From NCBI GenBank assembly GCA_023935145.1, contig CM043699.1, positions 68,488,638 to 68,552,637 on the forward strand: 64,000 nucleotides of DNA, in the 5' to 3' direction. The translations under genes were made by a program, and so were the position numbers. A model generated the notes under the pieces. The model was not told where the DNA came from. It searched no databases and saw only the letters and a program-made list of their open reading frames with translations. This DNA comes from Bretschneidera sinensis (taxonomy: Eukaryota; Streptophyta; Magnoliopsida; Brassicales; Akaniaceae). How positions within the stretch are numbered: position 1 is the stretch's first letter; each line of letters begins with the position of its first letter. Shown one piece after another: positions 34,675 to 63,324 of the stretch.

Positions 34675-35930
34675 ATTCTACCCACCTTATAAAAATTTCA
34701 TCCCCGAAATTTCCTTACCTAACTCAAGAAACACTTATGAATAATATTTCTTCATAGTTGTTTCACGCTCTCACGTAATCTCTTCAACATCTTTCTTCTG
34801 CCACAGAACTTGAACTAATTGAATTATTTTATTACACAAGACTTGTTCTTTTTGTCTAAAATTCTCATTAGTACTTGTATATAAGCCCAATCTTTTTGAA
34901 TTTATATAGCTTAGCTCGAAATATTTTAATATTCATCATGTAAACACTTTCTTAAAAGTGAAACATGAAATAAATTATATAAATGTTTTAATCCTGGAGG
35001 AAAATCTATGCTACTTACAACTAGCCCAACTTTCTTAACGACCTCATTGGGTCCCACATACCTCAGATTTAGCTTTCCTTTCATGTTTAAATCTCAATAT
35101 ACCTTTTCATTGAGATATTTTTCAATACACCCAATCATCTACTTGAAACTCTAGAGGTCTTCTTTTATTATCAACATAGCTATTCGGTATACTCTGTGCT
35201 GCTTTACGGTTATCTTTAACAAATGTGATCCTCTCAGTTGTTAATTCAATAATTGATGGACCAGATATAATTCTCTCTCCCATTTTTTCCCAACATATAG
35301 GAGTTCTACACCTCATATCATACAATGTCTCAATCGGTACCCTCCTAATACTAGTTTGATACTAATTATTATAAGCAATTTCAATCGATGGCATATAAGC
35401 GTCCCAACTTACTGAGAAACTCATCACATTTGCCCATAAGATATCTTTTAGTACTCTAATAATCCTTTCTGTTTGAGCATGAAAAATTATATTAAATTGC
35501 AACTGTGAACCCGTGGCTTTTTGAAAGCCTCTCCAAAACCAAGATGTAAATTTAGCATCTCTATTTAACACTATGCTTAATGGTGCTCCATACAACCTCA
35601 CAATCTCAACTATATCCCTCTTCAATCCTGACCACAAGAAATTCTGTCTCAATCCTCTATACATCTTATTGTTACTTGGTTGCATCGAATCTACATCATC
35701 ATGTGCCTTTCTCATTATCTCATTTCCGAACTCCATATTATTAGAAACACAACTCCTATGTTCCAATACCAAAATACCCTTAGTTCAAATTTTGAACTCA
35801 TATCGCTTTCTAGTAAGCACTTCCTGCTTACTCTTCTCTATATCTTTATCTCTACATTGCATCTCTAATAAGCATTTTACTATGGATGACTGTACAACCA
35901 TATTTGTTAACAATGATCCTCTATCACTGA
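34675..35930 (-). pseudogene. T3 integrase and chromodomain-like end
   Basis: On the minus strand the frame 35772-35362 has the second catalytic Asp region (LNRDAKFTSWFW) and FHAQTERIIRVLKDIL, but the zinc-binding middle and the first Asp region are missing (internal deletion). 35325-35122 carries CRTPICWEKMGER and KAAQSI. Remnants to 34880 form the C-terminus, and 34880-34690 the chromodomain-like end. The polypurine tract AAGGTGGGTA precedes LTR c. The sequence GTACTTG near 34871 is the empty site for A1. Confidence 0.8.
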
Positions 35931-36306
35931 TGATGAGTGAAAAATATTGCATATTTTGGCCACTTAATTTACATTTGTTAGCTTAGGAATTTGTTACTTT
36001 GAGTTGTTTTCATTGTTTTTCAGGTTTACAAGCACTAGGAAAGGAGTTTCACTAAAATTGCCAGAATTACCCGTACAGATCAATCATCTTTGAAAATTAA
36101 ACTGTATTGATTCAAGAAGAACCAGGATATGAGCCATATATGCTTAGAAAGATCCAGAAGTCTATTTTCTAGATAATTTTATGGCTCATAAAAATGATTT
36201 TTCTACAGAGAGTTATGGCTGTTTTAGTAGACAAAGGTCAGGCTGTGTGGGCTGTGCGGGATTTCAGCGTGAACAAAAGTTTTGAAGGGCATGTGAAGAC
36301 TTAAAT

Positions 36307-36375
36307 CCCATATCCCACATCGGTTGGAAACTCATTTCTATATTCCGCATCCCACATCGGATTGGAAACATATTA
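36307..36375 (+). promoter_or_regulatory. Direct repeats with TCCCACATCGG upstream of TATA
   Basis: Two copies of ATCCCACATCGG(A)TTGGAAAC follow each other within 70 bases and end about 20 bases before the TATA box. The 3' LTR repeats them at 40831-40903. A4 and A6 LTRs have single or variant copies (TCCGATGTGGGATA on the plus strand near 44360; TATCCCACATCGAA near 60943). They are likely promoter-proximal elements. The binding factor is unknown. Confidence 0.6.
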
Positions 36376-36392
36376 CCCTCGTGGTATTTGCC

Positions 36393-36399
36393 TATATAA
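36393..36399 (+). promoter_or_regulatory. A3 LTR TATA box
   Basis: TATATAAG lies about 465 bases into the LTR, after the TCCCACATCGG repeats. Both A3 LTRs have it (36393 and 40920), and A4 and A6 have it at the equivalent place. It probably sets the transcription start of the element. Confidence 0.65.
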
Positions 36400-37224
36400 G
36401 ACCCACTCCACTTCATCATTCAGTGTGCAATTCTTGAGCCATTTGGAGTTAACCGGTGGATGTCTCCTGGCATTCTGGTGGATCCCGAAGGCCTAGCTAC
36501 CACGAGGGGAAGCGCCGCCCATCAGTGAGTGGAATTTCTCCCATGTAAAGTTATTTATTTATTTTTATTTAGTTGTTTTAGTTTAATATTTAGCACTTCT
36601 ATTATGAATAGTAGTTTCATAGTTATGAGTGGCTAGAATCTTCAGCTAAGGTTGAAGATGAAGCCTCGCCGTTGTTTGGCATAGTAGTTCAGATTTGCTT
36701 GTACAAATCTAATATTTTTTAGTATAAATATTCCGTTAATTATTTGAGTAAAATCTTATGATTGATTGAGTTTAAATTGTTATGTTGGATATTCCTTGTG
36801 TTTCATCTGATGGATACATCGAATTGTTTTCGATTAAATTGGATTTCCTTTGTGATTTGTTAAGAGCGGATACATAGGATGCTTTTGGTTTAATTGGGAT
36901 ATTCTTTGTTTTTTTGTCTTAATTTGGATTCATTGAATTTTTTTGATAGGCTATCTTTAGAACATTGAGATATATGCTTAACTTTGGCGGGGTGGATTCA
37001 GAAACCTTAGTCTTTTTATTAGTTTTTAAAATCAATTTAGTTCAGCTTTTATTTATTTTGCAACATATAATTACAAATTTGGAACTAGGTTAAAATAGAC
37101 TTAGTTTAGATAAACTTATATTTTCACAACGCAATTCCCTATGGATTCGAACTTGCACTTGCACAACGCTATACTGCAAACGACTCGTGCGCTTGCGAGT
37201 AATTTAAAACTCACAACAAGTTTT

Positions 37225-37242
37225 TGGCACCATTGCCGGGGA
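37225..37242 (+). other. A3 primer binding site, decayed Asp type
   Basis: TGGCACCATTGCCGGGGA starts six bases after the LTR. It differs from the Asp-tRNA complement of A4 (TGGCGCCGTTGCC) by two G-to-A changes at CG sites. Confidence 0.9.
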
Positions 37243-37336
37243 ATTGTTCTGTTTGTGAAATTTTTTTGTCTGAATTGATATTATTTTTCTACTAGTTAGT
37301 TATCATTTTTTTATATAAAAAAAAGAGAAAAAATAA

Positions 37337-39061
37337 ATGTGGATGAATCCAGCGCCGGTTTCACAGTCTTTAGAGGACACCATTAAGGAGTACATGAAAA
37401 TGACCGGCCCGTCCATCAATGCTGCCAACACATTCAATGTTGATAGCTGTTCCATCTGTGCTAGTCCTATGCATTTAGCACAGCATTGTCCATCAATGCC
37501 GGTTTTTGCCGAGTATCCCATGGAACAAATGAATGCTTTCAATGACTGTTGTTGGCAATCAAATGGATCTTACTCCGAAACATACAATCCAGGGTGGTGG
37601 GACCACTCTAATTTTTCATGGACGCAGAACCAACTGAGGAATCAGGGAAGAGCCCCTTATCATGCTCACAATCAATACCCACTCGAATTTTCTATGCTAG
37701 TTCCAAGTTATAGTCACTTAGCCTATCCAGCACCATTACCTGCTTACCAAGCTCCCATTCAAACACCAGCGCCAGTTTCACTGTCACTTGAGGACACCCT
37801 TAAGGAGTACATGAAAATGACTAGCCAATCCATGAGCGAAGTGATGAGTGCAACAATAGAAAACACCCAAGCGATTGCCAAGCTAGAGAGTCAAATTGAT
37901 CAAATCGCAAGTTACGTGGGTGAAGGAGAGGAATGAGAGTTCCCTAGTCAACCTGAGCCTAACCCAAAGGAACAGTTTGCAGTGGGAAATTCATCAACTC
38001 CTATGCATTGGCAGGAACAAGTGCAATCAACTATCCCATACTTGTCTGGGAGACAAGTGGACAATCAAGTGGAGGAGAACACTGCTATGCAACAAGGGCA
38101 AGAAAGTGGCAACAAGGAAAAGAGAGATACTGAGCCATCTACAGCCACACTTATTATTAAGGATCTCTCTAGGTCGTTTTTACCTAAAACGCCTTACCCT
38201 GAGAGACTACAAGCGCCCAAGAAAGAAAGGAAGTCTGAGGACATTATGGAGGTAGGCTTTGCTCAGTTTGGAGAGGATTTAGACTTAGATAAGTTACTTG
38301 AGTAAGCAATTACTATCTTGGAGTCTGCTCCTCGGGAGAGTAGTAAGACAGAGGAGACTATGGATGAATCCCGCATTGAGGACCCCCTGGAGGCATGCTT
38401 TTCTCACTCTGGAGAGGACTTGGGCTTAGATAAGTTACTCAGGGAAGTGGATGTCATTTTAGAGTCTGATCCTCAAGAAAGCAATGAGATGGAGGAAATT
38501 ACAACACCTGAACCCCCCAAGAAGGAAATTAAGCCTTTACCGGACAATCTTAAGTATAAGTTCCTAAGTTCAGCAGATTCTTTGCCTATAATTATAGCTT
38601 TAGATTTGGGTGATGCTCCAGAGGAGAAATTTTTGGACATCTTAAGAGAGCATAAGGAAGCTATAAGCTGGACTATTGAGGATGTCAAGGGAATCAACCC
38701 CTCGTTGGTAATACACACGATACAGTTGGAGGAGAATGCCAAGCCATCGAGGGAGCCACAAAGAAGGCTCAACCCTGTTATGCAAGAGGTTGTGAGGGCA
38801 GAAGATATTAAGCTGTTAGAGGCAGGGATCATTTATCCCATCTCTGATAGCAAGTGGGTGAGCCTGATTCAAGTTGTGCCCAAACATGCTGAATTAATGG
38901 TAGTGAAGAATGAGGACGACGAGTTGGTGCCAACTCGTGTTCAGTCAGGAGAGAGAGTGAGTATTGACTACCGTAAGTTGAATGCTGCTACTAGGCCTGA
39001 TCATTTTTCATTCCTATTTATTGATCAGATGGTGGAGCGCTTAGTTGGGCATGTTTACTAA
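37337..39061 (+). pseudogene. A3 fused gag-RT fragment, two stops
   Basis: The frame opens at ATG 37337 and remains in one frame to TAA 39059-39061, with only TGA 37934-37936 and TAA 38303-38305 inside. Residues 38-51 form a CX2CX4HX4C knuckle (CSICASPMHLAQHC). The gag N-terminal capsid part is missing, and the phrase with PAPVS.SLEDT.KEYMKM occurs twice (residues 5-22 and about 150-160). The protease is deleted, and the acidic segment GEDLxLDKLL occurs twice. The RT fingers region follows (REHKEAISWTIEDVKGINP, IDYRKLNAATRPDHF) and ends before the catalytic Asp motif. The product, if made, could bind RNA but not polymerise. Confidence 0.88.
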
Positions 39062-39742
39062 TGTTGGGTCTGGCTGAAGACGTTAAACTTAGCGCTCATG
39101 GGAGGCACCCCACAGCTTATCTTTTCTGTTTATTTATTATTTCGCATTTTTATGATTAATGTTTGTTTCTAGTATTTTTTGTTTTCCAGTTTTTTATTTT
39201 TTTTTATTTTTCAAGGACAATGCGTACTTCAGTTCAAGTTTGGGGGTATGCTATGAGCCATACCAGTCCAGATAGTTCTCCATATCTCAGGTCAGCTATT
39301 TCCATATTAGTCACACATTGGGGTCAATGTGTAATTTAAGTTTGGGGGTATGGGAGACATCACACACTTTGTCCTAATTTGTTATCTTTTTGTCATAAAG
39401 ATAAATGCATGTTCATGTTCGTCTAAAAATTTTGGTTGTTATGAAAAATTGTGATGTGATTTCATTGGTGAGTTTAAAACTTTGAACACATGATCTGATG
39501 ATAAAGTTTAAACTTTAGTTACTTACGTTTGGCATTTTCAAGAATTCACATGTTTGATCTAATCTAACACGAGCACATCAGCACATATTTGTGTGAGGTA
39601 TGACAAGTAAGTTGAATGTATACGTTTCCTTGTCTTAACTGAAACTGGATGACTTGTTGGATAAACAATTGGGCATATATATAAAATAAAATAAAATAAA
39701 AACAACTAATACTACTAATATTTATAATGATCATCATCAATA

Positions 39743-39900
39743 AACTTTCCACTGAGTAACTGGACCTCTTGCCTCAGTAAGCAGTGAGTGTTCACGTCAA
39801 AAGGTGAGAATTTTATTCATAATGATCATTGCGAAACTTTTTGCTAAGTAACTGGACCTCTTGTCTCAGTAAACAGTGAGTGTTCAAGTCAAAAGGTGAA
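39743..39900 (+). repeat. Duplicated 60-base structured module in A3
   Basis: Copy 1 (39743-39805) and copy 2 (39836-39898) both read CTGAGTAACTGGACCTC or close, then CTCAGTAA and GTGAGTGTTCA, and end TCAAAAGG. ACTGAG and CTCAGT can pair as a 6-bp stem in copy 1. Copy 2 is more diverged. A4 and A6 have one copy, and the A5 tail has two nearly identical copies. Confidence 0.8.
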
Positions 39901-39970
39901 ATTTTGCTTGGTAGTATTAAGGCCGGTTTAATTTCGTAGCCTTTTTTACTCGAGTTAGTAAGTCCTTAGG

Positions 39971-40023
39971 GGTGTCTTTACACCTAATGCCCTAAAACCA
40001 TCTGGTTTGGGAGTCATTGACTC
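39971..40023 (+). promoter_or_regulatory. Row of three perfect hairpins in A3 3' RNA
   Basis: GGTGT-CTTT-ACACC (39971-39984), AAACCA-TC-TGGTTT (39995-40008) and GAGTCA-T-TGACTC (40011-40023) follow each other within 53 bases. All three stems are perfect. A4 (45258-45206, minus) and A6 (60096-60148) keep all three, and the A5 tail keeps the first two. A cis-acting RNA role (packaging, export or stability) is inferred. Confidence 0.7.
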
Positions 40024-40455
40024 AACACTCATTTCATGGGTCAATTAGAAAGCTTAAGGGAACTAAACATAGCAGAGCCTTATGTTAAAAAAAAAAAAAA
40101 CTATGCCTTCATTGTTCTTTCCGACGAGAAATTCTATGGATCTTGAGATTTGAATACCTTGTACATTGAAGTTATTTGGAAATCTCATCTGTATATGCTA
40201 ATTCACTTTACACTGATTCAAGCTTGTGATGTCTTACCATGCCTCTTGTAAGTAATTAATTTTTAAATTATTATTCATTGTGAAGATGGGTTTGACTTAT
40301 TTAAGCTTGCTCATGAATGAATCTCATGATTTTGAATGCTCCTTAAATTTTTGGATACCATGAATACTGAACTTATCTTTATAATCTTTGTTGTTCATTT
40401 AGTTTTTTTATTTTGTTTTGCTAAGGGACTAGCAAAATGTAAGTTTGGGAGTATT

Positions 40456-41745
40456 TGATGAGTGAAAAATATTGCATATTTTGGCCACTTAATTTACATT
40501 TGTTAGCTTAGAAATTTGTTACTTTGAGTTTTTTTTTATTGTTTTTCAGGTTTACAAGCACTGGGAAAGGAGTTTCACTAAAATTGCCAGAATTGCCCGT
40601 ACAGATCAATCATCTTTGAAAATTAAACTATATTGATTCAAGAAGAACCAGGATATGAACCATATATGCTTAGAAAGATCCAGAAGTCTATTTTTTTGGA
40701 GAATTTTACGGCTCATAAAAATTATTTTTCTACAGAAAGTTATGGCCGTCTTAGTAGACAAAGGTCAGGCTGTGCGGGCCGTGCGGGATTTCAGCATGAA
40801 CAGAAGTTTTGAAGGGCATATGAAGACTTAAATCCCACATCCCACATCGGTTGGAAACACATTTCTATATCCCACATCCCACATCGGATTGGAAACACAT
40901 TGCACTCGTGGTATTTGCCTATATAAGACCCACTCCACTTCATTATTAAGTGTGCAATTCCTGAGCCATTTGGTGTTAACCGGTGGATGTCTGCTGGCAT
41001 TCTGGTGGATCCCAAAGGCCTTGCTACCATGAGGGGAAGTACTGCCCATCAGCGCGTGGAATTTCTCCCATGTAAAGTTATTTATTTATTTTTATTTAGT
41101 TGTTTTAGTTTAATGTTTAGCACTTTTATTATGAATAGTAGTTTCATAGTTATGAGTGGCTAGAATCTTCAGCTAAGGTTGAAGATGAAGCCTCGCCATT
41201 GTTTGGCATAGTAGTTCAGATTTGCTTATACAAATCTGACATTTTTTAGTATAAATGTTCCATCAATTATTTGAGTAAAACCTTATGATTGATTGAGTTT
41301 AAATTGTTCTGTTGGATATTTCTTGTGTTTCATCTGATGGATACATCGAATTGTTTTCGATTAAATTGGATTTCCTTTGTGATTTGTTAAGAGTGGATAC
41401 ATAGGATGCTTTTGGTTTAATTGGGATATTCTTTGTTTTTTTGTCTTAAGTTGGATTCATGGAATTTTTTTGATAGGCTATCTTTAGAACATTGAGATAT
41501 ATGCTTAACTTTGACGGGGTGGATTCAGAAACCTTAGTCTTTTTATTAGTTTTTAAAATCAATTTAGTTCAGCTTTTATTTATTTTGCAACATATAATTA
41601 CAAATTTGGAACTAGGTTAAAATAGACTTAGTTTAGATAAACTTATATTTTCACAACGCAATTCCCTGTGGATTCGACCTCGCACTTGCACAACACTATA
41701 CTGCAAACGACTTGTGCGCTTGCGAGTAATTTAAAACTCACAACA
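40456..41745 (+). repeat. A3 3' LTR
   Basis: It matches 35931-37218. U3 module 40600-40775, TCCCACATCGG repeats 40831-40903, TATA box 40920-40926. It ends AACTCACAACA and is followed by the ACTGA duplication and by T3 RNase H sequence. Confidence 0.93.
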
Positions 41746-43501
41746 ACTGATATTCACCTTCATTCTTATCTCTCTTAATCTATCATCAATTACACGTTAT
41801 GACTTTTAATAGCAATCAATCTTCTTGTAGATTTTTTGCTCAATACATCTGTTACCACATTCGCTTGCCCTCGATGGTAGTGAATTTATATAATCATAGT
41901 CACTAATCAACTCCATCCACCGCCTCTGTCTCAAATTCAACTCTCTCTCGGTAGGTAAGTATGTCAACTCTTATGATCAGTGAATATCTCACAAGTGGCT
42001 CTATACAGACGATGTTTCCAAATCTTTAAAGCAAATACTATGGTAGCCAACTCTAACTCATGGGTAGGGTAATTTCTCTCATTATTCTTCAATTGAATAG
42101 AAGCATATGCCATTATCTTCCCATGTTGCATCAACACATATCTCAACTCTTGATGGGATGCATCATTATATACTACAAATCCTTCATCACCAGAAGGAAA
42201 CACCAATACTAGAGCTGTAGTCAATTTCTCTTTTAGTAATTTGGAAACTTTTCTCACGCTTCCCACACCATGCAAATCTCATCTCTTTCCTGGTCAATCT
42301 AGTCAAAAATATTACAATACTAAATTTTTTTTGAAAGAATCTTCTTTAATAACCATCTAACCCCAAGAAGATTCTAATCTCACTCACATTAGTTGGTCTC
42401 TCCCAACTTAACATTGCCTCTACCTTTAGTGGATCAACTGTTATGCCATTTCCCGATATTACATGTTCTAAGAAGGTCATTTCTTTCAGCCAAATTTCAA
42501 ATTTAGGAAATTATAGCATACAATCTCTCTCTCCTCAAAATCTCCAACACAATTTCTAAATATTTTACATGCTCATCCTTAGTCTTAGAATACACCAAGA
42601 TGTTATCAATGAACACAACCGCAAGATTATCAAGAAATGGTTTAAACATTTTATTCATCAAGTCCATGAATGTTGCTAGAGCATTAGTCCACTCAAATAG
42701 CATCACAAGAAACTTATGACTATAACGTGTCCTAAAAGCAGTCTTAGGCACCTTCTCTCTCCTTTATCCTTAACTGGTGATAACCTGATCTCAAGTTTAT
42801 CTTTGAAAACACTCTCACTCCTTGCAACTGCTTAAACAATTCATTTATCCTAGATAAAAGATATTTGTTCTTATTCAAAAATCTGTAGTTTATACACAAT
42901 CTCATCATTCCATCTTCCTTCTTCACGAACAACACAGGGGCTCCCCAAATACATTAGGTCCGATAAATTGTTTATCCAAAAATTCTTAAAATGGTACGTT
43001 CAATTCTCTCAATTCAGTTGGCGTCATTCTATATGGTGCTATTAGATATATGTGATGAACCTAGTATCACATCGATAGAGAATTTAATCTCCCTACTAGG
43101 AGGCAACCTAGAAAATTCATCAACAAATACATCAGAAAAAAAATCTGTCATTACTAAGATTTCTTCTAACTCCCTATTTTCCTTTTTAGAATCCATTATA
43201 TATGTTAAATACTCCTCATAACCCTTTTTCAACCATCTACTAGTAGTCAGAGAAAAATAAGATAGTTTGAGAGTATCTCATATATTCTCCCTGAAAGTTA
43301 AACTTCTCATGTCCATATCTTGAACACTACCTTCTTTATAAAACAATCAACCATATTCAAAGATAATAAATCAGCTTCAGATTCTCTATCACTGATACAA
43401 ATCACACAACCCTTGTAAACATTTATGATTATCACTCTATCTCTAGTGGGAACTTCAACAAAAATATTTTGCATCAAAGGACTAATACATACTTCAATAG
43501 A
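41746..43501 (-). pseudogene. T3 RNase H, reverse transcriptase and protease
   Basis: RNase H (42275-41964) has [36 protein letters not shown] and the closing FTDHKS. RT (42935-42503) has [33 protein letters not shown] and [11 protein letters not shown]; the second catalytic Asp of the usual IDD pair is Asn. The RT N-terminus is at 43232-43029 (LPPSREIKFSIDVILGSS). A protease remnant starts at 43501, where A4 is inserted; its other half is at 49094. Several frameshifts separate the pieces. Confidence 0.84.
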
Positions 43502-44894: not shown

Positions 44895-46031
44895 AATACC
44901 CCCAAACTTACAATTTGCTAGTCCCTTAGCAAAACAAAATAATAAAAAAAAACCTAAATGAAAAACAAAGAACATAAAGATAAGTTCATCACTCATGGTA
45001 TCCAAAAATTTAAGGAGCACACATCACCATGATATTCATTCATGAGCAAACTTAAGGTCTCAATGTCTCAAGATTCACCGAATTTCCCATCAAAATGAAT
45101 GAAAAAGGTATAGTTTTTTTTTTTTTTTTATTATTTATTTTTTTTATAAGGCACGGCTATGTCTAGTTCCCTTAAGCTTTCTAATTGACCCATGTAGCGA
45201 GTGTTGAGTCAATGACTCCCAAACCAGATGGTTTTAGGGAATTAGGTGTAAAGACACCCCTAAGGACTTATTAACTCGAGTCAAAAAGGCTACGAAATTA
45301 AACCGGCCTTAATACTACCAAGCAAAATTCCACCTTTTGACGTGAACACTCACTGCTTACTGAGGCAAGAGGTCCAGTTAATCAGCGGAAAGTTGTAGTA
45401 ATTTTTTTTTTCATTTTTTTTTCTTTATGCCCAAGTGTTCATCCAACAAGTCATCCAGTTTCAGTTAAGATAAGGAAAAATACACATTAAAATCACATGT
45501 CATACCTCACATAATGTGTGCTAATGTGCTCGTGTTAGATTAGGTCAAACATGTGAATTCTCAAATGCCTAAGGTAAGTAACTAAATTTTAAAATTTATC
45601 ACCAGATCATGTGTTCAAAATGTTAAGCTCACCAATGACATCACATCACAGAAAATGTTTAGATCAACCAAAATTTCATGATAACATGAGTATGCATTTA
45701 TCTTTACGACGAAAAGACAGCAAATTAGGACAAAGTGTGTGATGTGTCTCCCATACCCCCAAACTTAAATTACACATTGACCCCAATGTGTGACTAATAT
45801 GGAAAGAGCTGACCTGAGATATGGAGAACTATCTGGACTGGTATAGCTCATAGCATACCCCCAAACTTGAACTGAAGTACGCTTTGTCCCTGAAAAATAA
45901 AAACTGGAAAAAAAAAACACTAGAAACAAACATTAATAATAAAAATGCGAAATAATAAATAAACAAAAAAAGATAAGCTGTGGGGTGCCTCCCATGAGCG
46001 CTAAGTTTAACGTCTTCAGCCAGACCCAACA
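44895..46031 (-). other. A4 3' non-coding region with conserved RNA modules
   Basis: Reading on the minus strand: post-pol motif (46024-45973), pyrimidine tract with TTTTTCAGGGACAA (near 45885), polypurine-like copy (45868-45856), hairpin (45791-45772) and second polypurine-like copy (45766-45754). The single CACTGA.../CTCAGTAAG module is at 45392-45331, with the Tyr-free spacer to 45259 and the three hairpins at 45258-45206. An A/T homopolymer zone at 45115-45150 follows. The final polypurine tract meets the LTR at 44895. No protein is encoded. Confidence 0.8.
45206..45258 (-). promoter_or_regulatory. Row of three hairpins in A4 3' RNA
   Basis: Plus-strand coordinates of the stems are 45245-45258 (GGTGTAAAGACACC), 45221-45234 (AAACCAGATGGTTT) and 45206-45218 (GAGTCAATGACTC). 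All are perfect and occur in the same order and spacing as in A3 and A6 when read in the sense of the element. Confidence 0.7.
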
Positions 46032-51809: not shown

Positions 51810-51989
51810 TGATAAGTGCTTAAATAGTCATATTTAAGCCCCTTAATTTACACTTGTTAGGCTCTTTATTTTTCTATTTCTATGGATTCTACTTCATTTT
51901 CATGTTTTATGTGTTTTTCACAGGACTTGGACAAAAAGATGATAATTTGGAGCTTTTAGAATCAAAAGTCAAGATTTGCCATCCAGCAA

Positions 51990-52105
51990 ATTGCGCTCGA
52001 GCGCACCCATTGAGATCGAGCACATAAGAGCACGAGCGCACTTGAAGAAGGCTCGAGTGCACACTTGCGCTCGAGCGCATCCTGCATACGCTCGAGTGCA
52101 ATCAC
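51990..52105 (+). promoter_or_regulatory. Cluster of CG-rich palindromic boxes upstream of TATA (A5 5' LTR)
   Basis: About seven boxes of the type GCTCGAGCGCAC or GATCGAGC.CA occur in 115 bases, ending about 85 bases before the TATA box. The 3' LTR has the same cluster at 63507-63617 with more CG retained. A6's LTR has a different palindrome (GCGATCGATCGC) in the equivalent place. A binding site for a dimeric factor is a reasonable inference. Confidence 0.6.
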
Positions 52106-52187
52106 TCTAGAGGTGGCAGAGCCAGATATGGAAAGAAGTCTTTTGACTCCAAAAAGGACTTAGGGTTTCAGGACACCAAGAGGACCC

Positions 52188-52195
52188 TATAAATA
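52188..52195 (+). promoter_or_regulatory. A5 5' LTR TATA box
   Basis: CCCTATAAATAGCCC is a strong plant TATA context, identical in the 3' LTR at 63704-63711. Confidence 0.75.
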
Positions 52196-53100
52196 GCCCT
52201 GTAAAATACATAAACCGGACCTTTTGTTCTAGATTCGAAGTAAAGAGCTTAGGAGAGGAATTGACGACTCGTCTCCCGAGTCTTCTTCGGTTTTAGTTTT
52301 CTGTTTTTATTTCATTATGTTTAGAATGTTTAGTTTACTTAGCATGTGTAACTAAACTCTTATAGGGCTCGATTGAAGCCCTAGGTATGCTTTTCCACAT
52401 GTTCATTCATTGATTATCTTTGCTATAGCCTTGTTAGAATATTTAACTAGATTAATACCTGTTTGTATTTACATTCCTCATATGTATGTGCCTGATCAAC
52501 GTATGCATGTGGTATGGATAAGTTAGTCGAATTAATTTGGATGACCGAGTCCTGGGTTCGACATTAGTAACAAAGGATATCCACACTGAATTCTCGGGTT
52601 AATCAACATAAGAAACCGGGAGCGGACCAAGCCCTAGGTCCCGTGTGGTTGCCGATCTCTATAACCCTCATGCTCTCTTAAGGAACAACTCAGTATACAC
52701 CCATGCCGAATCCTTTAAGAGAGAAAAGAGTTAGAGTATACACCATGCCTAACTCGTTATATAGGGAGATCAATAGCCTAAGGTGTGGACCAATACCTTA
52801 GGTTGGCAACCATTAGATATTCATGATAAGGCTAGAGCATTGAAGCTTTACTTAGTGGGAAAGTATAATTAGGGTGGATATCGTAGTCCTATGTTCCCAT
52901 TATTGTTATTTACTCACAATCAAACTGCTATTTCTCTTTTTAAACTTGAAGAAACTAATTCTAAAACGAAATTTACCAATCTCTGTGGAAATGATCTCGC
53001 ACTTGCACACTATGCTACCATAGACCTTGTGCACTTGCAAGTAAAACTCGGACGGTTATTTGCATATTTATTTAGGTAGATAATCGCTCCAACAAGTTTT

Positions 53101-53118
53101 TGGCGCCGTTACCGGGGA
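53101..53118 (+). other. A5 primer binding site (Asp tRNA)
   Basis: TGGCGCCGTTACCGGGGA lies six bases after the LTR and is identical to the A1 primer site. Confidence 0.92.
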
Positions 53119-53401
53119 TTGCTCTAAAATTTATTTTTAGAATTAATTTCTCATTTAATTTAATTTTTGTTATTTCCTTTTTATTCGATTCTTAATTATT
53201 GTGTTTATCTTATTTTTTTCGCTTCATTAAAAACCCTAATCAATTTCCTTTTTTTTTTTTTTCCTGTTTCAAGTACTCCAGGAGAGCTTTCTGTGCTACT
53301 TGCGATCGAGCGCACCCTCTGTGCAATCGAGCACAATTGAGGCAGAGAGTAATCTGAGTAGCAGTGTTTGACTGCTGCACTCAAGTAACTGCCACCGATT
53401 C
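53119..53401 (+). other. A5 leader
   Basis: This is the AT-rich leader between primer site and gag start. It contains TGCGATCGAGCGCACC followed by GTGCAATCGAGCACA (53302-53332), the same box type found in the A5 and A6 LTRs, here outside any LTR. No reading frame of interest is present. Confidence 0.6.
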
Positions 53402-53689
53402 ATGCACGGACGACGATTCAAGCATCCTGATCCCGAGCTAGAGAGAACTATTCGACAAAGACTTAGAGACAACTCGGAAGAAGAAGAAGGAGGAGTTAAG
53501 GAAGAGATACCAATGGCAGAACAGATAGCTGAACAGCAACCACCTGAGCGAAGGCTGATGAAGCAATCCTTCATCCAGCAGAACCTCGATCAACCATCGT
53601 GCATCATGTATCAACCTGAGGCAGAAGGAAACTACTATATATCTCCACAGATACTCGATCAACCTCGATTAATTTTATTTTTCTACTAG
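53402..53689 (+). pseudogene. A5 gag N-terminal fragment
   Basis: The frame starts at ATG 53402 (MHGRRFKHPDPELERTIRQR) and includes a segment like the N-terminus of Athila gag (LDQPSCIMYQPE). Its end departs into the leader of A6 at about 53665, recognisable by TATTTTTCTACTAGTTAGTT, which in A3 follows the primer site. The rest of A5's gag and all of its pol are absent. Confidence 0.7.
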
Positions 53690-53831
53690 TTAGTTAGCAA
53701 TATTGTTGTTTGATTTTTCTGTTTGCAATTTTATTTGTTTCTATTTGCATTGTTAAATAAAAAATAATAAAAAAAAAACATTTTTGCAAATTTCTGCGGG
53801 TTAGGTTATTTTAGTGCTTTTTGTGCGGTGT

Positions 53832-55312
53832 ATGCTTGGTCGGAGATCCCTGAATTTAGATTTGATACATTTAGATCCCGACATAGAAAGAACTCTTAGG
53901 AGACAGAAAAGAGCACTAGTTGAAAGAGAGACAATTGAAATGGGAGAAAATTTTAGGAATGCAAATCATCCGGAACATATAGAGCAACCTAGAGCTTGGA
54001 ACGTGGACTCCACTACATCCCTTAGGGATTTGTTCGCAACCGTTGCGACTAATTCATCCTCTTGCATAGTGTTGCCACCTACCAATGCCACCCATTTTGA
54101 TTTAAAGCCACATATCATCCAACTTCTACCCTCATTTCATGGCTTAGATCTTAAGAACCCTTATAGTCATGTGAAGAAGTTAAAAGATATTTGTGCTACA
54201 TTCGAATTCCAGAACTTCTCTGAGAAGTCAGTCCATCTTCGATTCTTCCCTTTTTCTCTTCACGATAGAGCTAGGGCGTGGTTGGATTCCAACACGCTCG
54301 GGTCTATCACATCTTGGGAAAACCTGCTTAGTAAATTTTATCATAAGTTTTTCCTAATGTCTAGAGTGAATGAGTGCCAAAAGGAGATTAGTTCTTTCAC
54401 TCAGGACGAGGATGAGAAGTTCTCTAAGAGTTGGGAGCGCTTCAAAGAGTTACTGATCAGATGCCCTCCACATGGATATGAAAAGTGGAGACTCATTCAG
54501 TTCTTTTATCAAGGGTTGACTCAACCCAACCGTAGCATAATCGAGTCTATGAATGGGGGGCATTCTTGAGTCTGACGGGGGAGGAAGCATACAAGGCATT
54601 GGACAAGTTGTCCGATAACTCGGAACAGTGGAATTTTTCAAGCTGTCGAGATAAATCGACTCATGCTCCCAAGAGAGGACGCATCTATGAGGTAAAGGAG
54701 GACACTGACCTGAGGATGAAGTTAGATGCTCTCACTGTGGGCCAGTCCATCAATGCTGCCAACACATTTAATGTTGATAGCTGTTCCATCTGTGCTAGTC
54801 CCATGCATCTAGCACAAAATTGTCCATCAATGTCGGCTTTTTCCGAGTATTCTATGGAATAAGTAAATGCTTTCAATGTATATTAGAGGCAATCGAATGG
54901 ATCGTACTCCGAGACGTACAATCCAAGGTGGTGGAACCACCCAAATTTTTCATGGAAGTAGAACCAACCAATGAATCAGGGAGGAGCCCCTCATCATGCT
55001 CACAATCAGTATCCTCCCGGATTTTCCCCAAAAATTCCTAGTTATGGTCGTTATACCCATCAAGCACCATCACCTGCTTATCAAGCACCCATTCAAACTC
55101 CAGTGCCAGTTTCACAGTCGCTAGAGGACACCCTTAAGGAGTTCATGAAGACGACTAGCCAAAATATGAGTGATGTGAGGAGTGCAACAGTGGTAAACAC
55201 CCAAGCAATTGCCAAGCTGGAGAGTCAAATAGGGCAAATTGCAAGTCACCTGGGTGAGAGAGAGAAATGAAAGTTCCCCAATCAACCCGTGCCTAACCCG
55301 AAGGGATAATTT
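53832..55312 (+). pseudogene. A6 gag
   Basis: ATG 53832 is the likely start (MLGRRSLNLDLIHLDPDIER). The capsid-like part runs to 54569 (FDLKPHIIQLLPSFHGLDLKNP, then ENLLSKFYHKFF and SFTQDEDEKFSKSWERFKELL). A frameshift at a run of six G near 54554 changes to the frame used by all downstream domains. The knuckle CSICASPMHLAQNC follows at about 54779-54820. Stops are at 54860 and beyond. TGA 55268-55270 is at the same place as the TGA in A3. The A3 and A4 frames begin inside this gene. Confidence 0.86.
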
Positions 55313-56353
55313 ATGGTTGAAAATTCTTCACATCTTACGCACGGGGAGGAACAAGTGCAATCGATTGTTACATTAAGGTCTGGGAGACAAGTGGACAATC
55401 GAGTAGAAGAGACCCCTGCTGTGCAGCAAGGGGAAGAAGGTGACAATAAGGAGAAGAGAGATGCTGAGCCATTTACAGCCACATCTACTGTGAAAGACCC
55501 TCCTAGGTCATTTATACCTAAAGTGCCCTACCCTGAGAGATTACAAGTGCCCAAGAAAGGAGGTAAGTATGAGGAAATTTTGGAGGTATTCAAGCAAGTC
55601 CAAATCAATATCCTATTTTTGGATGCCATCCATCAAGTACCGTCATATGCTAAGTTTTTAAAGGACTTGGTTACTATCAAGAGAAGGACGAATGTCTCGA
55701 AGAAAGCATTTTTGACCGAGTAGGTTCGCTCAATCCTTTAGTGTAAGCTACCTATCAAGTATAAGGACCCGAGGAGTCCTACCATCTCTTGCACGATAGG
55801 AGTCAGCCAGATCGAGAGGGCTCTATTGGATCTAGGAGCAAGTGTGAATCTTCTGCCTTACTCAGTCTATCTGCAATTAGGGTTAGAAGAATTAAAGCCC
55901 ACAAACACAATGCTTCAATTGGCTGACAGGTCAGTGAAAATACCACGGGGAATAGTTGAGGATGTTTTGACAAAAGTAGATAAGTTCTATTTCCCAGTGG
56001 ATTTTATTGTGCTTGACATAGAGCCGGTTCAGAATGTAGGGATTCAGATACCGGTTATTCTAGGGCGATCATTCTTAGCCACGCCTAACGCCCTGATCAA
56101 TTGTAGGACAGGGGTGATGAAGATTTCATTCGGAAATATGACAGTGGAGTTAAACATCTTTGATATCACTAGGCAACCACTGGAGTATAATGAAATGAGA
56201 AATGTATGCTTGATAGAAGAGATTCTTGAGGAGACTATGAACGAATCAAGCATTGAGGATCCCCTAGAGGCATGCTTTGCTCACTTTGGAGAGGACTTGG
56301 GCTTAGATAAGTTACTCGAGCAAGTGAATGCCATTTTGGAGTCTGATCCTTGA
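55313..56353 (+). pseudogene. A6 protease region
   Basis: The frame 55313-55723 is the gag-protease linker (TLRSGRQVDN, IPKVPYPERLQVPKKGG). Two TAG stops follow. The protease frame starts about 55740, with the active site LLDLGASVNLLPYSVYLQLG near 55826-55880, then MLQLADRSVKIPRGIVEDVL and the second half GRSFLATPNALINCRTG. An acidic tail (GEDLGLDKLL) leads to RT. This domain is the one removed in A3 and A4. Confidence 0.88.
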
Positions 56354-57238
56354 GAAAGCAATGAGAAAGAGGAGACGGTAGCACCTGAACCCCACAAGAA
56401 TGAACTTAAGCCTTTACCGGATAATCTTAAGTATAAGTTCCTAGGTCCAGCAGATTGTTTGCCTGTGATTATAGCTTCAGATTTGGGTGAGGCTAAAGAG
56501 GAGAAATTATTAGATGTTTTAAGAGAGCACGAGAAAGCTATCGGCTGGACCATTGAGGATATTAAGGGGATCAGCCCCTCGGTGGTAATGCATAAGATAC
56601 ATTTGGAGGAGAATACCAAGCCATCGAGTGAGCCACAAAAAAGGCTCAACCCAACTACGCAAGAGGTTGTGAGGGCAGAAATAATTAAGCTGTTAGATGC
56701 AAGGATCATTTATCCCATCTCTGATAGCAAGTGGGTGAGCCCGATTCATGTCGTGCCCAAGCGAACGGGATTGACGGTAGTAAAGAATAAGGACGACGAG
56801 TTGGTGCTAACTCGTGTTTAGTCAAGGTGGAGAGTGTGTATAGACTACCGTAAGCTGAACGTTTCCACAAGAAAGGATCACTTTCCACTTCCATTTATTG
56901 ATCAGATGGTGGAACGTTTGGCTGGGCACGAGTATTATTGCTTTTTAGATGGTTATTCTGGATATAACCAGGTCCCCATGGACCCCGAAGATCAGGAAAA
57001 GACGATGTTTACATGTCCTTTTGGGACATTCACCTGCCGTCGCATACTCTTTGGGTTATGCAATGCACCCGCTACTTTTCAGCGGTGCATGGTCAGCATA
57101 TTCTCTGACATGGTAGAGCAGATCTTAGAAATTTTCATGGATGACTTCTCTGTCTTCGGTTCATCATTTGAGGAGTGCCTGCACCGTCTCACCTTGGTTT
57201 TAGTGTGGTGCAAGGAGAAGAACCTAGTGCTTAATTAG
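56354..57238 (+). pseudogene. A6 reverse transcriptase
   Basis: The fingers (56459-56821) have REHEKAIGWTIEDIKGISP and ARIIYPISDSKWVSPIHV. After a TAG (Gln in the A3 relative) the palm (56834-57238) has CIDYRKLNVSTRKDHFPLPF, the catalytic FLDGYSGYNQ and FMDDFSVFGS, all intact, and ends at a TAG in place of a Trp (LVLN*EKYHF). The A3/A4 deletion starts just before FLDGYSGY. Confidence 0.92.
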
Positions 57239-58090
57239 GAGAAGTACCATTTTATGGTCAAGCAATGAATTGTACTGGGGCATATCATATCTCATCGAGG
57301 GATTGAGGTCGACAAAACAAAGGTGGACTTGATTTTCAACCTTCCACCCCCACGTACGGTGAAGGAGGTTCGTTCTTTTCTGGGCCATGCAGGTTTCTAC
57401 AAGCGATTTATCCATAATTTCAGCAAAATCACCAGGCCCTTGTGCAAGTTATTGTTGAAGGATGCCCCATTTATATTTGATGAGGACTGTAAGAAAGCAT
57501 TTTGGGATCTGAAGAAGATTCTGACGTCCACACCCATTATTTAGCCACCTAACTGGGGTGTGCCTTTTGAGATTATGTGTGACGCATCAGACTATATTGT
57601 TGGAGTTGTTTTGGGGCAGTGTGTTGATAAACTTCCCCATGTTATCTATTATGTAAGTCGAACTCTAAACGGCGCACAACTTAATCACTCTACCACTGAG
57701 AAGGAGTTGTTAGCAGTCGTTTTTGCATTAGACAAGTTCAGATCCTACTTGTTAGGGTCTAAGGTCATTATCTGCTCGGATCATGCAGCCTTGAAGTATC
57801 TTTTCTCTAAAAACGATGCTAAATCTCGTTTCATCCGATGGATCTTGCTACTTCAAGAGTTCGACATCGAGATTCGGGATAAGAAAGGTTCAAAAAATGT
57901 GGTGGCAGATCATTTGGACAAATTGATTGTGGGTTTCACTGAGGCCGCCACTCCCATTTCTGAGACCTTTCCTGATGAGTAATTGATGCATATTGCTCAC
58001 AGTCCCGCGCCGTGGTTTGCTGATATAGTGAACTATTTTGTCACCGGACACATGCCTTTGCATTGGGGGCGGCAAGATAAATAAAATTTT
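57239..58090 (+). pseudogene. A6 RT thumb and RNase H
   Basis: The tether (57323-57544) has SFLGHAGFYKRFIHNFSKI. After a TAG the RNase H part (57560-57982) carries MCDASDYIVG, TEKELLAVVFALDKF, SDHAALKYL and VVADHL, so all four acidic positions are present. A TAA at about 57980 and another near 58081 interrupt the link to integrase (HSPAPWFADIVNYF). Confidence 0.9.
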
Positions 58091-59305
58091 TTGGCCATGG
58101 TAAAACACTTTTTCTGGGACAATCCTTACCTGTTCAAGTATTGTCCCGATCAGATCATCAGAAGGTGTATTCTTGAGCATGACCAATCTAATGTCATCGC
58201 CTTTTGTCATGATCATGCCTATGGAGGCCATTTCAGTGCTAAAAAGACTACTGCAAAGATTTTACAGTGTGGATTTTATTGGCCTACCCTGTTTCGAGAC
58301 TCTTATACCTACTGTGTATCTTGTGAGCATTGTGAAAAGCTAGGGAGTCTTTCTAGGAGGAATATGATGCCCCTCAACCCTATTCTGATTATTGAGATTT
58401 TTGACGTGTGGGGCATTGATTTTATGGGACCGTTCCCAAACTCCTTTGGCTACTTGCATATTCTAGTTGCTGTGGACTATCTATCCAAGTGGGTGGAGGC
58501 CGTTGCGTGCAAGACCAATGACCACAGAGTTGTGGTCCAGTTTTTGAAGGACACTATTTTTGCTCGATTTGGTATGCCTCGAGCAATCATAAGTGATGGA
58601 GGTAAGCACTTTTGCAACCGGATTTTTGAGCAGTTGATGAAAAATTATTTCATCATACACAAGGTTGCCACCCCGTATCACCCGCAGACGAGTGGACAAG
58701 TGAAAATTTCTAATCGCGAGATCAAACATATTTTAGAGAAAACTATGAACCCTAGTAGAAAGGATTGGTCTCTGCGATTGACTGATGCACTGTGGGCATA
58801 TCGGACAGCCTTTAAGACGCCAATTGGCATGTCTCCCTATCGTATTGTGTATGGAAAGGCATGTCACCTTCCGGTTGAATTAGAGCATAGAGCCTATTGG
58901 GCTATCAAGCAGTTGAACTTCAATCTTTCGAAGGCTGGCACACAAAGGAAGCTCCAACTCAATGAATTAGAGGAGCTACGGAATGATGCATACGATTGTG
59001 CACGGTCCTACAAGGCACAAATGAAGAAGACTCATGACCAACACATTTTGAGACGAGCTTTTGAGCCAGGTCAAAAAGTTCTTCTTTACAATTCACGTTT
59101 GCATCTTTTTCCAGGCAAGCTCATATCTCGTTGGACAGGCCCATTTATTATTCGGTCGATTTTTTCGCATGGGGCCATCGAGATTGAGGATCCAAATAAT
59201 GGTAACACTTTCAAGGTAAATGGACAGAGGCTAAAACCATTCTTGGAGTTGAGGAGTCTGGACATAGAGACAATATTATTGGAGGATCCTAGTTACTCAG
59301 ATTGA
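58091..59305 (+). pseudogene. A6 integrase, open 404-codon frame with a catalytic change
   Basis: This is the longest intact frame of the window. The zinc-binding part has [10 protein letters not shown] and [11 protein letters not shown] (residues 40-82). The catalytic core has Asp110 (WGIDFMGPF) and Asp169 (IISDGGKHF), but the residue expected to be the catalytic Glu is Lys205 ([12 protein letters not shown]; codon AAA at 58703-58705), whereas A1 has Glu. The C-terminal part has [20 protein letters not shown] and [19 protein letters not shown]. It has the usual Athila length and ends LLEDPSYSD at TGA 59303-59305. Joining activity should be lost. Confidence 0.9.
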
Positions 59306-60593
59306 GTGTCGTCTACTAGGGGGAGTCTGGCTGAAGACTTTAAACTTAGCACTCATGGGAGGCACCCCACAGCTTATCTTTTCTGTTTGTTTATTATTTT
59401 ATATATTTATGATTAATGTGTGTTTCCAGTATTTTTTGTTTCCCAGTCTTTATTTTTCAGGGACAACGCGTACTTCAGTTCAAGTTTGGGGGTATGCTAT
59501 GAGCAATACCAAGTCAACTCTTTCCATATTATTCACACATTGGGGTCAATGTGTAATTTAAGTTTGGGGGTATGGGAGACACATTACACACACTTTGTCC
59601 TAATTTGTTGTTGTTTTTCTTCATATATATAAAAAAAAGAAGGTAAATGCATGCTCATGTTATCTTGAAATTTTGGTTGATTTAAACAATTTCTGTGATG
59701 TGATTCATTGGTGAGCTTAAATTTTGGAGCACATGATCTGTTGATAAAGTTTTAAAATTTAGTTATTTACTTGAGGCATTTGAGAATTCACATGTTTGAT
59801 CTCTAATCTAACACGAGCATATTAGTACGCATTATGTGAGGTATGACATGTGATTTTAATATGTACGTTTCTGTCTTAACTGAAACTGGATGACTTGTTG
59901 GATTAACACTTTGGCATATATATATAAAAAAAATGAATGAAAATGATGATCATAAATAAACTTTCCACTGAGTAACTGGACCTTTTGCCTCAGTAAGCAG
60001 TGAGTGTTCACGTCAAAAGGTTGGAATGTTGTTTAATAGTATTAAGGCCAGTTTAATTTCGTAGCATTTTTGACTCGAATTAGTAAGTCCTAAGGGGTGT
60101 CTGTACACCTAATGCCCTAAAACCATCTGGTTTGGGAGTCATTGACTCAACACTCGCTACATTGGTCAATTAGAAAGCTTAAGGAAACTAAACATAGCAG
60201 AGCCTTACAAAAAAAAAAAAGAGAGAAGAAAATAAAAACTATGCCATTTTCGTTCATTCTGACGGTAAATGCGGTGAATCTTGAGACATAGAGAACTTAC
60301 ATATTGGACTCATTCGGAAGCTTCATTTTTATTTGCTAATTCACTTTACACTGAGTCAGACTTGTGATGCCTTAACCTGCCTTTTATAAGTAATTAGATT
60401 TTAACATTTCTATTCATTGCGAAGATGGGTTTATCTTTTTAAGCTTGCTCATGAATAAATATCATGGTGGTGTGTGCTCCTTAAATTTTTGGATAACATG
60501 AGTGATGAACTTATCTTTATGTTCTTTGTTTCTCATTTAGTTTTTTTGTTTTGTTTTGCTAAGGGACTAACAAAATATAAGTTTGGGGGTATT
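59306..60593 (+). other. A6 3' non-coding region with conserved RNA modules
   Basis: The order is post-pol motif (59324-59374), pyrimidine tract with TTTTTCAGGGACAA (near 59452), polypurine-like copy (59482-59494), hairpin ACACATTGGGGTCAATGTGT (59535-59554) and second polypurine-like copy (59560-59572). These are followed by a single CACTGAG/CTCAGT module (59960-60022), three hairpins (60096-60148) and the final polypurine tract (60579-60591). No protein is encoded. Confidence 0.8.
60096..60148 (+). promoter_or_regulatory. Row of three hairpins in A6 3' RNA
   Basis: Stems are GGTGT-CTGT-ACACC (60096-60109), AAACCA-TC-TGGTTT (60120-60133) and GAGTCA-T-TGACTC (60136-60148). The loop of the first differs from A3 (CTTT) and A5 (CATT), while the stem is unchanged. 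Confidence 0.7.
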
Positions 60594-60750
60594 TGATGAA
60601 TCTTAAATATTGCATATTTAAGCCCTTTAATTTATATTTGTTAGGTTCTTAACTTGTATTATTTCATTTTATTTTATGTGTTTTCTGTATTTTTATAGGT
60701 TTGTGGAGAAAATGAAGCATTTCGAGAGATGTCAAGCTTCAAGAGCATTA

Positions 60751-60925
60751 GCGATCGATCGCACCGTGCTGCAATCGAGCGCATGGTCAATATCCCACAT
60801 CGAAATCTTTGCAGTGTAGTGTTCTTACGATCGATCGCACCTGACTCATGATCGAGCGCACAGGCGATTGTGTGCACAAGACCTACGATTGAGCGCAAAT
60901 GCGATCGATCGCACTATTCTGCGAT
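60751..60925 (+). promoter_or_regulatory. GATCGATCGCAC palindrome cluster in A6 LTR
   Basis: Perfect GCGATCGATCGC palindromes occur at 60751-60762 and 60901-60912, with close variants in between (ACGATCGATCGCAC near 60828, ATCGAGCGCA near 60774 and 60851). The cluster lies just upstream of the TATA box at 60989. Confidence 0.65.
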
Positions 60926-60988
60926 CGAGTGCACTCGGGGCAGTATCCCACATCGAATCTGAAACCTATAGTGCTTCGAGACTCCCCC

Positions 60989-60996
60989 TATATAAA
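60989..60996 (+). promoter_or_regulatory. A6 LTR TATA box
   Basis: CCCTATATAAACACC stands where the other A-element LTRs have TATATAAG or TATAAATA. Confidence 0.65.
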
Positions 60997-61805: not shown

Positions 61806-63324
61806 CAGACCATCCTTGACCGCCTACCTCCTGCACTCGGTACCCTCCTCGATTGCACCCACAGATGATCAGCAGTGAGAGGATACCCCGTCTGGCTAAA
61901 GATATAAAACTTAGTGCTAATGAGAGGCACCCCAGACATATCTTTTTTCATTTTAGTACTTTTCATTTGTTTATAGTTATATTTACATGTCTATTATTTA
62001 TATTTTGTTTTCCAGAACAATGTTTATTTTTCTTTGTCAGGTACTTCTTGCGTGCATCCAATTCAAGTTTGGGGGCGCGTACAAGCAAGCAACCTAGTTC
62101 TCCATCTCCCAGGTCAGATCTTTCCATGCCACACACACATTGGGGACAATGTGTATTTTAAGTTTGGGGGTAGTGGGAGATACTAGATACTATTGCACAC
62201 ACACACTTGAAACACGTGCACGCACTAAATCCCAGTTTTTTTTTTTTTTTTAGAAAAGATAAATGTATGTTCATTTGGTAACAAAAATGTTGGTTGATTT
62301 AAAAATTTGATAACATTTCATTAGTAAACTTAAAAACTAGAACACATAGTCTTGTATTAGGAATTTTACAAAGTTAGTTACCTATCTCAAGGCACCAAAG
62401 AATTCACAAGTTTGATCCAAATTTGCACAAGCACATTTAGCATGCATTTATGTGGGGTATGACACATAATTCTTTTATATATGTTTCCATAACCTAACTA
62501 TAATCGGAGAACTTGCTAAAAAGAACACTTTGGCATAAGGAAAATAAAGAAAAATGTTCATCATGCAAAAAAGTGATTAAAAAGCTTCTAATGATCATTA
62601 AAAACTTTCCACTGAGTAACTGGGCCTCTTGCCTCAGTAAGCATTGAGTGTTCACATCAAAAGGTGGGAAGTAAGACTTTAATGATCATAATAAAAATTT
62701 CCACTGAGTAACTGGGCCTCTTGCCTCAGTAAGCATTGAGTGTTCACATCAAAAGGTTGGAATTTCATTTAGGGGCATTAAAACCTATTAGTTTTGTAGC
62801 CTTTTTGATTCGAGTTAGTAAGTCCTTAGGGGTGTCATTACACCTAATGCCCTAAAACCATCTGGTTTGGGAGTCATTGGCCAACCGCTCGTTACAAGAG
62901 TTAAATAGAAAGCTCGATGGAACTCAACATGGCAAAGATAGCATGACAAAAGAAAAAGAAAGAAGAAGCAAATATTATGCCATTTTGTTCTCTTTGATAA
63001 GAAATTCGATAAAGGTTTGGGCACCGAAACACTATACACTAAAATTATGTGGAAGCCCCATCTTATATGTGCTAAGTCATCACACACAAATCAAACTTGC
63101 GATGCCTTAGGCCAGCCTTAGGTAAGTAATATGAGCTTTTGAAAATCCTTTTTCAATACAAAAATGTGTTTTTATTTTAAGCTTACTCATGAACGGTTAT
63201 CATAGTTTTATGCACAACCCAGATTTTTGAATATCATGGAAATGAATTTATCTTTAAATTTTGTTCTAACACAGTCTTTAGTTTTGTATTGCTAAGGGAC
63301 TAGAAATATATAAGTTTGGGGGTA
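61806..63324 (+). other. A5 3' non-coding region with conserved RNA modules
   Basis: The first 85 bases may be the last remains of A5 pol. Then come the post-pol motif in a diverged form (61890-61936) and a pyrimidine tract ending TTTGTCAGGTACTT (near 62035). A polypurine-like copy (62065-62077), the hairpin with GGGA loop (62135-62154) and a second polypurine-like copy (62160-62172) follow. Two nearly identical 60-base modules (62602-62664 and 62697-62757), hairpins 1 and 2 (62831-62844 and 62855-62868) and the polypurine tract AAGTTTGGGGGTA (63312-63324) complete the region. The third hairpin is disrupted here. The frames at 62815-63110 are not genes. Confidence 0.78.
62602..62757 (+). repeat. 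Recent tandem duplication of the 60-base module in A5
   Basis: Two copies with CACTGAGTAACTGGGCCTC, CTCAGTAAGCATTGAGTG and CACATCAAAAGG are about 95 bases apart and nearly identical, so this duplication looks younger than the one in A3. Confidence 0.85.

Follow-up and report, generated by a model that had tools for sequence, protein, structure and literature searches.

The window analysed here, 64,000 nucleotides of contig CM043699.1 of Bretschneidera sinensis, holds four copies of a short non-coding block, in elements designated A3, A4, A5 and A6, and raises the question of what has kept this block so alike. The original prediction was that a row of three perfect hairpins (H1 to H3) is conserved there as a cis-acting RNA signal of Athila-like elements, and its placement of the copies at positions 39971-40023 (A3), 45258-45206 on the minus strand (A4), 60096-60148 (A6) and from 62831 (A5) was confirmed throughout. 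A 26-nt heart of the block occurred four times at zero mismatches compared with no occurrence in 100 shuffles, which rules out a chance origin of the four copies. In a four-way alignment of the linkers, the non-coding stretches in which the block lies, the best 60-column window (39960-40019) was 93.3% invariant, versus 64.8% over all 1122 ungapped columns. The linkers of A3, A4 and A6 shared 85.4-90.0% identity with one another, and that of A5 shared 71.5-73.0% with these three. Segmental duplication as the origin of the copies was excluded by the unlike target-site duplications of A3 and A4 and by the 71.5-90% linker identity among the four.

The surroundings of the four copies are Ty3/gypsy elements. 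The two LTRs of A3, each of 1.3 kb, are 95.1% identical and those of A4 94.1%, and the target-site duplications are of 5 bp (ACTGA for A3, TCTAT for A4), a length usual for plant LTR elements and not specific to a lineage. A primer binding site of the TGGCGCCGTTGCCGGGGA type, which we take to be that of tRNA-Asp, was found at four places with at most two changes; A3 and A4 have such a site. The non-chromoviruses, according to passages of PMC6317226, do not use primer binding sites of the tRNA-Met type but those of tRNA-Asp and others. The open reading frames (ORFs) of A6 encode Retrotrans_gag, Asp_protease_2, Integrase_H2C2 and rve domains, with no chromodomain detected in the integrase ORF by a domain scan that covered ORFs, the RT and RH region of A6 being without an ORF of at least 150 codons. 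The A6 linker begins directly after the integrase ORF, which is followed by no extra ORF in this element, and all four linkers are 1.1-1.4 kb in length and devoid of ORFs of at least 150 codons. Passages of PMC6317226 attribute to most OTA elements a large non-coding region, often with an extra ORF, and name an archaeal RNase H as the marker of Tat. For integrase relatives such as P0004 and P0005, as distinct from the window element, the domains listed were two RT_RNaseH models plus those of integrase, with RNase H having no other entry. Within the 120 top-ranked of 7968 integrase relatives, the named proteins were from plants, except P0066 (labelled Modestobacter), and their names were uninformative on clade. 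As judged from sequence features, the host element appears to belong to an abundant Athila-like Ty3/gypsy lineage.

Two stretches of A6 (~55589-56228 and 56929-59324) are absent from both A3 and A4, and the alignment of A3 with A4 runs through both deletion junctions. Because the deletions are shared and their junctions alignable, A3 and A4 probably derive from a single deleted form, but they are separate insertions. The original prediction regarded the retention of the block in these deleted elements as a mark of selection; the block is indeed present in both, but it was the whole linker that was kept, not the block in particular. A3 (35931-41745) and A4 (~49093-43502) probably represent a non-autonomous subfamily moved in trans. 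Elsewhere in the window, the stretch 51810-64000 is chimeric, in that two LTR-like stretches of one family (51810-52485 and 63325-64000, 93% identical and starting TGATAAGTGC) flank the linker and LTR of another family (starting TGATGAATC, at ~60594), through nesting or recombination.

Table 1. Coordinates within the window of the features described in the text.
Feature	Position	Strand	Remarks
5' LTR of A3	35931..37218	+	preceded by target-site duplication ACTGA (35926-35930)
Primer binding site of A3	37225..37242	+	presumed tRNA-Asp type, two changes
Internal PPT-like tract AAGTTTGGGGGTA	39236..39248	+	no hairpin upstream
Hairpin ACACATTG-GGGT-CAATGTGT	39313..39332	+	precedes internal PPT-like tract 39338-39350
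Second constrained linker stretch	39831..39900	+	milder than core; 19+5 internal and 76+25 terminal changes in 43+23 columns
63-nt hyperconserved core, copy A3	39957..40019	+	0 internal-branch and 60 terminal changes, 36 copies
H1, GGTGT-CTTT-ACACC	39971..39984	+	within core; 64 of 87 copies have five Watson-Crick pairs, rising to 71 once wobble is allowed
H2, AAACC-ATCT-GGTTT	39995..40008	+	within core; 65 of 85 copies have five Watson-Crick pairs, rising to 72 once wobble is allowed
H3, GAGTC-ATT-GACTC	40011..40023	+	fully paired (five pairs) in 24 of 86 copies, 26 with wobble
Hairpin TTTTGCTA-AGGGAC-TAGCAAAA	40416..40437	+	precedes terminal PPT; 18-nt heart is the sampling anchor
Terminal PPT of A3	40441..40453	+	adjoins 3' LTR at 40456
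3' LTR of A3	40456..41745	+	target-site duplication ACTGA at 41746-41750; 95.1% identity with 5' LTR
Core, copy A4	45210..45272	-	profile match
Core, copy A6	60082..60144	+	profile match
Core, copy A5	62817..62879	+	profile match; 3' arm of H3 lost

Further copies were retrieved from the genome of this one species (1.21 Gb, 550 contigs) with the 18-nt heart of the hairpin adjoining the terminal polypurine tract (PPT), an anchor picked so that the feature under test plays no part in the sampling; it does enrich copies with an intact terminal hairpin. The anchor, TTGCTAAGGGACTAGCAA, was found with at most one mismatch at 14,863 sites, which serve as a gauge of the abundance of this lineage, and its reversed-letter control at none. 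A total of 90 anchor loci were utilized, comprising 30 long and 51 short loci at the canonical anchor and nine at a variant anchor, the 60 short stretches (51 canonical, nine variant) being of 125 bases each. All 81 canonical loci lie within the first 18.5 Mb of contig C1, and the nine variant-anchor loci on contigs C2, C3, C4, C6 and C8. A compensatory variant of the terminal hairpin was found at nine sites as an exact match versus 14,863 canonical ones at up to one mismatch, a comparison across unlike mismatch limits. In 29 of the 30 long loci, the heart of H2 (at most four differences) precedes the anchor by 411-457 nt; in the remaining one, L044, a deletion has removed both H1 and H2. A profile of the 63-nt core matched 89 of 96 copies, namely 83 of the 90 anchor-chosen stretches, including all nine with the variant anchor, and the six from the window or its vicinity. 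Partial matches made up six of the 89, with the one in L044 covering just 20 nt. In the other seven anchor-chosen stretches, the 125 bases fetched held no match to the core. Over 264 kb (the window and its surroundings), the profile retrieved six copies at 76-87 bits, four in the window and two beside it, and nothing further above 8 bits; the other Ty3 families in this region, of which integrase-like stretches were found, therefore lack the core.

To follow the history of the core, a tree was built from 36 copies, namely the 30 long loci plus the four window copies and their two neighbours. The core was left out of its construction; the six window-associated copies had been located via the block itself. 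Columns with fewer than 30 letters were dropped from the family and branch counts. Across the 63 columns of the core, no change fell on an internal branch and 60 fell on terminal branches. For the 68-column block 39951-40018 there were two internal and 69 terminal changes, versus 388 and 638 in 430 columns of the flanks (Fisher p=1e-11), and with L024, L047 and L044 removed the counts were 0 and 56 in 62 columns versus 362 and 578 (p=4.7e-12). Windows of 62 columns along the linker (n=1093) averaged 51.6 internal changes (sd 20.4); apart from those overlapping the core, the lowest count was 16. The longest other stretch free of internal change measured 17 columns, and the longest in 2000 column shuffles 23. 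When the linkers were grouped by family (six clusters, taken as four after two singletons, L024 and L047, were merged; median identity 75%), the 68 core columns contained 0 fixed differences and 30 singletons, versus 256 and 657 in 1086 columns (p=9e-5). Since the core mutates after insertion and the transposing lineages have kept it unchanged, it is under purifying selection in the active element, and in this respect, selection on a non-coding and presumably cis-acting signal, the original prediction was supported.

Terminal changes per column were fewer in the core than in the flanks (0.95 versus 1.48, about two thirds). This is expected under selection because the terminal branches are in part active time; a somewhat lower mutation rate is also possible, and a lower rate alone could not yield zero internal changes. 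A mutation cold spot was considered as the main cause and rejected on account of the 60 terminal changes in 63 columns. It might also be proposed that no selection is involved, the core being common to the families through recent recombination, template switching, gene conversion or lower mutation, and the reduced terminal rate and the chimeric stretch 51810-64000, which suggests nesting or recombination of such elements, are in keeping with this. We regard it as very unlikely, however, given that the site demonstrably mutates, that a tract with identical sharp borders in every family would not be expected to arise in this manner, and that internal changes in the immediately adjoining flanks already number 40 over 49 columns and 36 over 61.

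Next to the core in degree of constraint is a stretch that lies in a segment of ~90 nt, CACTGAGTAACTGG...CAGTGAGTGTTCA, which is single in A4 and A6 and forms a tandem pair in A3 (39719-39905), A5 (62589-62769) and a neighbour (L012, ~4613-4889).

The hairpins themselves fared differently. Stems of 6 bp had been proposed for the second and third, AAACCA/TGGTTT and GAGTCA/TGACTC, which would leave loops of 2 nt and 1 nt, respectively; the 5-bp forms are foldable. Stems were scored in 88 copies (L044 excluded), with gapped copies dropped for each stem (leaving 87 for H1, 85 for H2 and 86 for H3). The sequences of H1 and H2 occur in all four linker families. H3 has its 5' arm and loop inside the core and four of the five letters of its 3' arm outside; this arm deviated in 80 of 430 cells, carried six internal changes in five columns, and reads GACTC in one family only among the 36 copies assigned to families. 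The predicted row of three hairpins thus fails at H3, all pairs of which are present in only 24 of 86 copies; H3 does not belong to the conserved signal and is refuted as a shared element for this sample.

Stems no better kept than their spacers had been named in the original prediction as an outcome that would refute it, and deviating cells were indeed as frequent in the stems of H1 and H2 (55 of 1753, 3.1%) as in the unpaired core (95 of 2979, 3.2%; p=1.0). The apparent pattern of a varying loop upon a fixed stem proved to be a small-sample effect, with 30 of 878 cells deviating in the H1 stem versus 18 of 352 in its loop (p=0.19), and p=0.85 for the same comparison in H2. Three double changes were observed in H1 and H2, one of which keeps the pair (L054) and two of which break it (L041 and L032). 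At the G-C pairs of the stems, C-to-T changes, which would leave a wobble, numbered 15, versus 20 of the pair-breaking G-to-A changes; the order was reversed at unpaired core sites, with 35 and 21 changes, respectively, of 616 each. Covariation was uninformative because no stem column of H1 or H2 changed on an internal branch. Selection for a three-hairpin RNA structure as such, although H1 and H2 appear in the predicted minimum-energy folds and in every linker family, is consequently quite unlikely on these counts: H3 is mostly incomplete, the stems are kept no better than the unpaired core letters, wobble-leaving changes are not in excess, and a single double change preserves pairing. The three-hairpin row cannot be upheld as the selected feature, whilst H1 and H2 as small hairpins are possible. 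The motifs TTAGGG (39966-39971) and CCCTAA (39990-39995) form an inverted pair around H1 which would compete with H1 and H2 and which resembles plant telomere repeats.

Folding predictions place the stability of the core RNA within the range of shuffles. Relative to shuffles, sense-strand z-scores were -1.33 (H1-H2), -1.43 (H1-H3), -0.43 (39951-40018) and -0.98 (126 nt), and antisense z-scores were -1.65, -1.54 and -0.77 for the first three of these pieces; a 120-nt piece extending further 3' (39951-40070) reached z=-2.06, with 12 of 500 shuffles equally stable. The minimum-energy folds predict both H1 and H2, with the pairing of H2 shifted in the 68-nt piece. This ordinary stability on either strand would also suit a regulatory element acting at the DNA level, such as a transcription-factor, insulator or antisense-promoter site whose palindromic stems are protein half-sites. 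Such an element is the leading alternative, because conservation does not differ between paired and unpaired letters, as expected for DNA read by a protein. In one family, H3 supplies a GAGTC/GACTC inverted repeat. Even so, the core is positioned in the internal region, outside the LTR, and 63 unbroken constrained columns would be long for a cluster of such sites, so we consider regulation at the DNA level somewhat unlikely.

Invariant runs in the four-copy linker alignment also include PPT-like tracts, AAGTTTGGGGG. Scanning of the 264 kb identified 17 such tracts of three kinds, with a perfect hairpin preceding none of the five of the first kind, four of the seven of the middle kind and three of the five of the terminal kind; among random places, 9% were preceded by a stem of 6 bp or more. 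In A3, AAGTTTGGGGGTA tracts are repeated along the linker (39236-39248, 39338-39350 and 40441-40453), with matching places in A4, A5 and A6, and two of the three kinds are preceded by a hairpin with a G-rich loop (GGGT/GGGA, AGGGAC), apparently as a repeated hairpin-plus-tract unit. On the minus strand, the two units are predicted to fold more stably than shuffles, with z-scores of -4.4 (39305-39360) and -4.2 (40410-40456), which does not hold for the sense orientation (-1.3 and -1.5).

The core contains GGTTTGGGAG, a purine run similar to the terminal tract, and may accordingly be viewed as a degenerate extra PPT, with hairpins ahead of it, that would take part in reverse transcription by priming the plus strand or aiding strand transfer. 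The other tracts of the linker, two of whose three kinds have a hairpin before them, are consistent with such a role, as is the extra PPT described for the linkers of Athila4 and Calypso in passages of PMC2829016. Nonetheless, this explanation is unlikely: the run is short and accounts for a small share of the 63 columns under constraint, the greater part of the core is non-purine, and hairpins of the loop-GGGAC type found at the other tracts are absent from it.

No ORF of at least 150 codons overlaps the core. On the minus strand, a frame of 20 codons from ATG to TAA covers most of it (39951-40019), probably by chance. A micropeptide encoded by a frame of this kind has the presence of the antisense frame in its favour; the frame is, however, far below a convincing length, and we consider the probability negligible. 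Rfam covariance models gave no match up to E=1 in 39060-40560, and exact-pattern scans, aimed at stray plant sequence, returned no match in viral contigs or in prokaryote genomes. Complementarity between the core and the 5' leader (p=0.2, 0.125 and 0.76), and between the core and tRNA-Asp (p=0.78), was within that of shuffles, and no self-complementary stretches of 6, 8, 10 or 12 nt were present in the core of A3, A4 or A5.

Our preferred explanation, to which we give about an even chance, is that the core is a 63-nt sequence-conserved, non-coding, cis-acting element of the 3' linker, separated by ~410-460 nt from the downstream hairpin at the terminal PPT and functioning as an RNA-level signal read mainly by sequence. 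Its conservation under selection, its position and its presence in deleted copies are observed directly; that it acts as RNA, with what partner and at which step, we infer. The core would act in the genomic RNA as a signal needed in cis, in packaging by Gag, export or the fate of the unspliced RNA, and would be recognized mainly through its letters, which H1 and H2 may present in two small hairpins; deleted elements would likewise need the signal in cis. The narrower proposal of a dedicated, sequence-specific packaging or export signal, common to coding and deleted elements, is put forward only tentatively. Counting against an RNA signal are the ordinary fold stability, the lack of an Rfam match, the lack of complementarity and the 5' location of known signals, since the packaging, dimerisation and cyclisation sequences of Ty1, Ty3 and HIV-1 are placed at the 5' end in passages of PMC11381356.

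If the narrower proposal is true, the packaging or export signal would be what lets deleted elements travel along with coding ones, and would be equivalent in plants to the psi or transport elements of retroviruses. A strongly constrained short block in a many-copy element provides a concrete 63-nt target for tests of export and packaging, and the contrast between internal and terminal branches offers a cheap route to working cis-signals in dead repeats. In the open PubMed Central literature, no such block was described in the titles and abstract openings of the best-ranked matches. Passages of a 2025 review (PMC12786077) state that there are no direct studies of the RNA export of plant LTR retrotransposons, and the packaging sequences of yeast Ty3 are described in passages of PMC11381356 as not yet precisely defined.

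Several known systems bear comparison with the core. The constitutive transport element of simple retroviruses is located close to the 3' LTR. The RTE of IAP and the MTE of MusD are cis-acting RNA elements within their own transcripts, as the core putatively is; passages of PMC12786077 describe a partner or structure for them, whereas for the core it is sequence conservation that is shown. Ty3, itself a Ty3/gypsy element, has cis-acting sequences that include a 3' PBS (passages of PMC11381356), and the core differs from the latter in having no complementarity to tRNA-Asp beyond that of shuffles. Athila4 and Calypso, with their additional linker PPT, are possibly of the same lineage, with the same linker, as the elements described here, in which internal PPT-like tracts are present too, but the passages of PMC2829016 that deal with them mention nothing like the 63-nt core. 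The closely analogous linker of Sireviruses, which are Ty1/copia elements, likewise carries conserved non-coding motifs and repeated PPT-like tracts in a fast-changing region before the 3' LTR; the motifs there, according to passages of PMC2829016, are PPTs and an inverted repeat at the junction of PPT and 3' LTR. The core, in contrast, is a 63-nt block ~410-460 nt upstream, is not mainly purine, and belongs to a Ty3/gypsy element.
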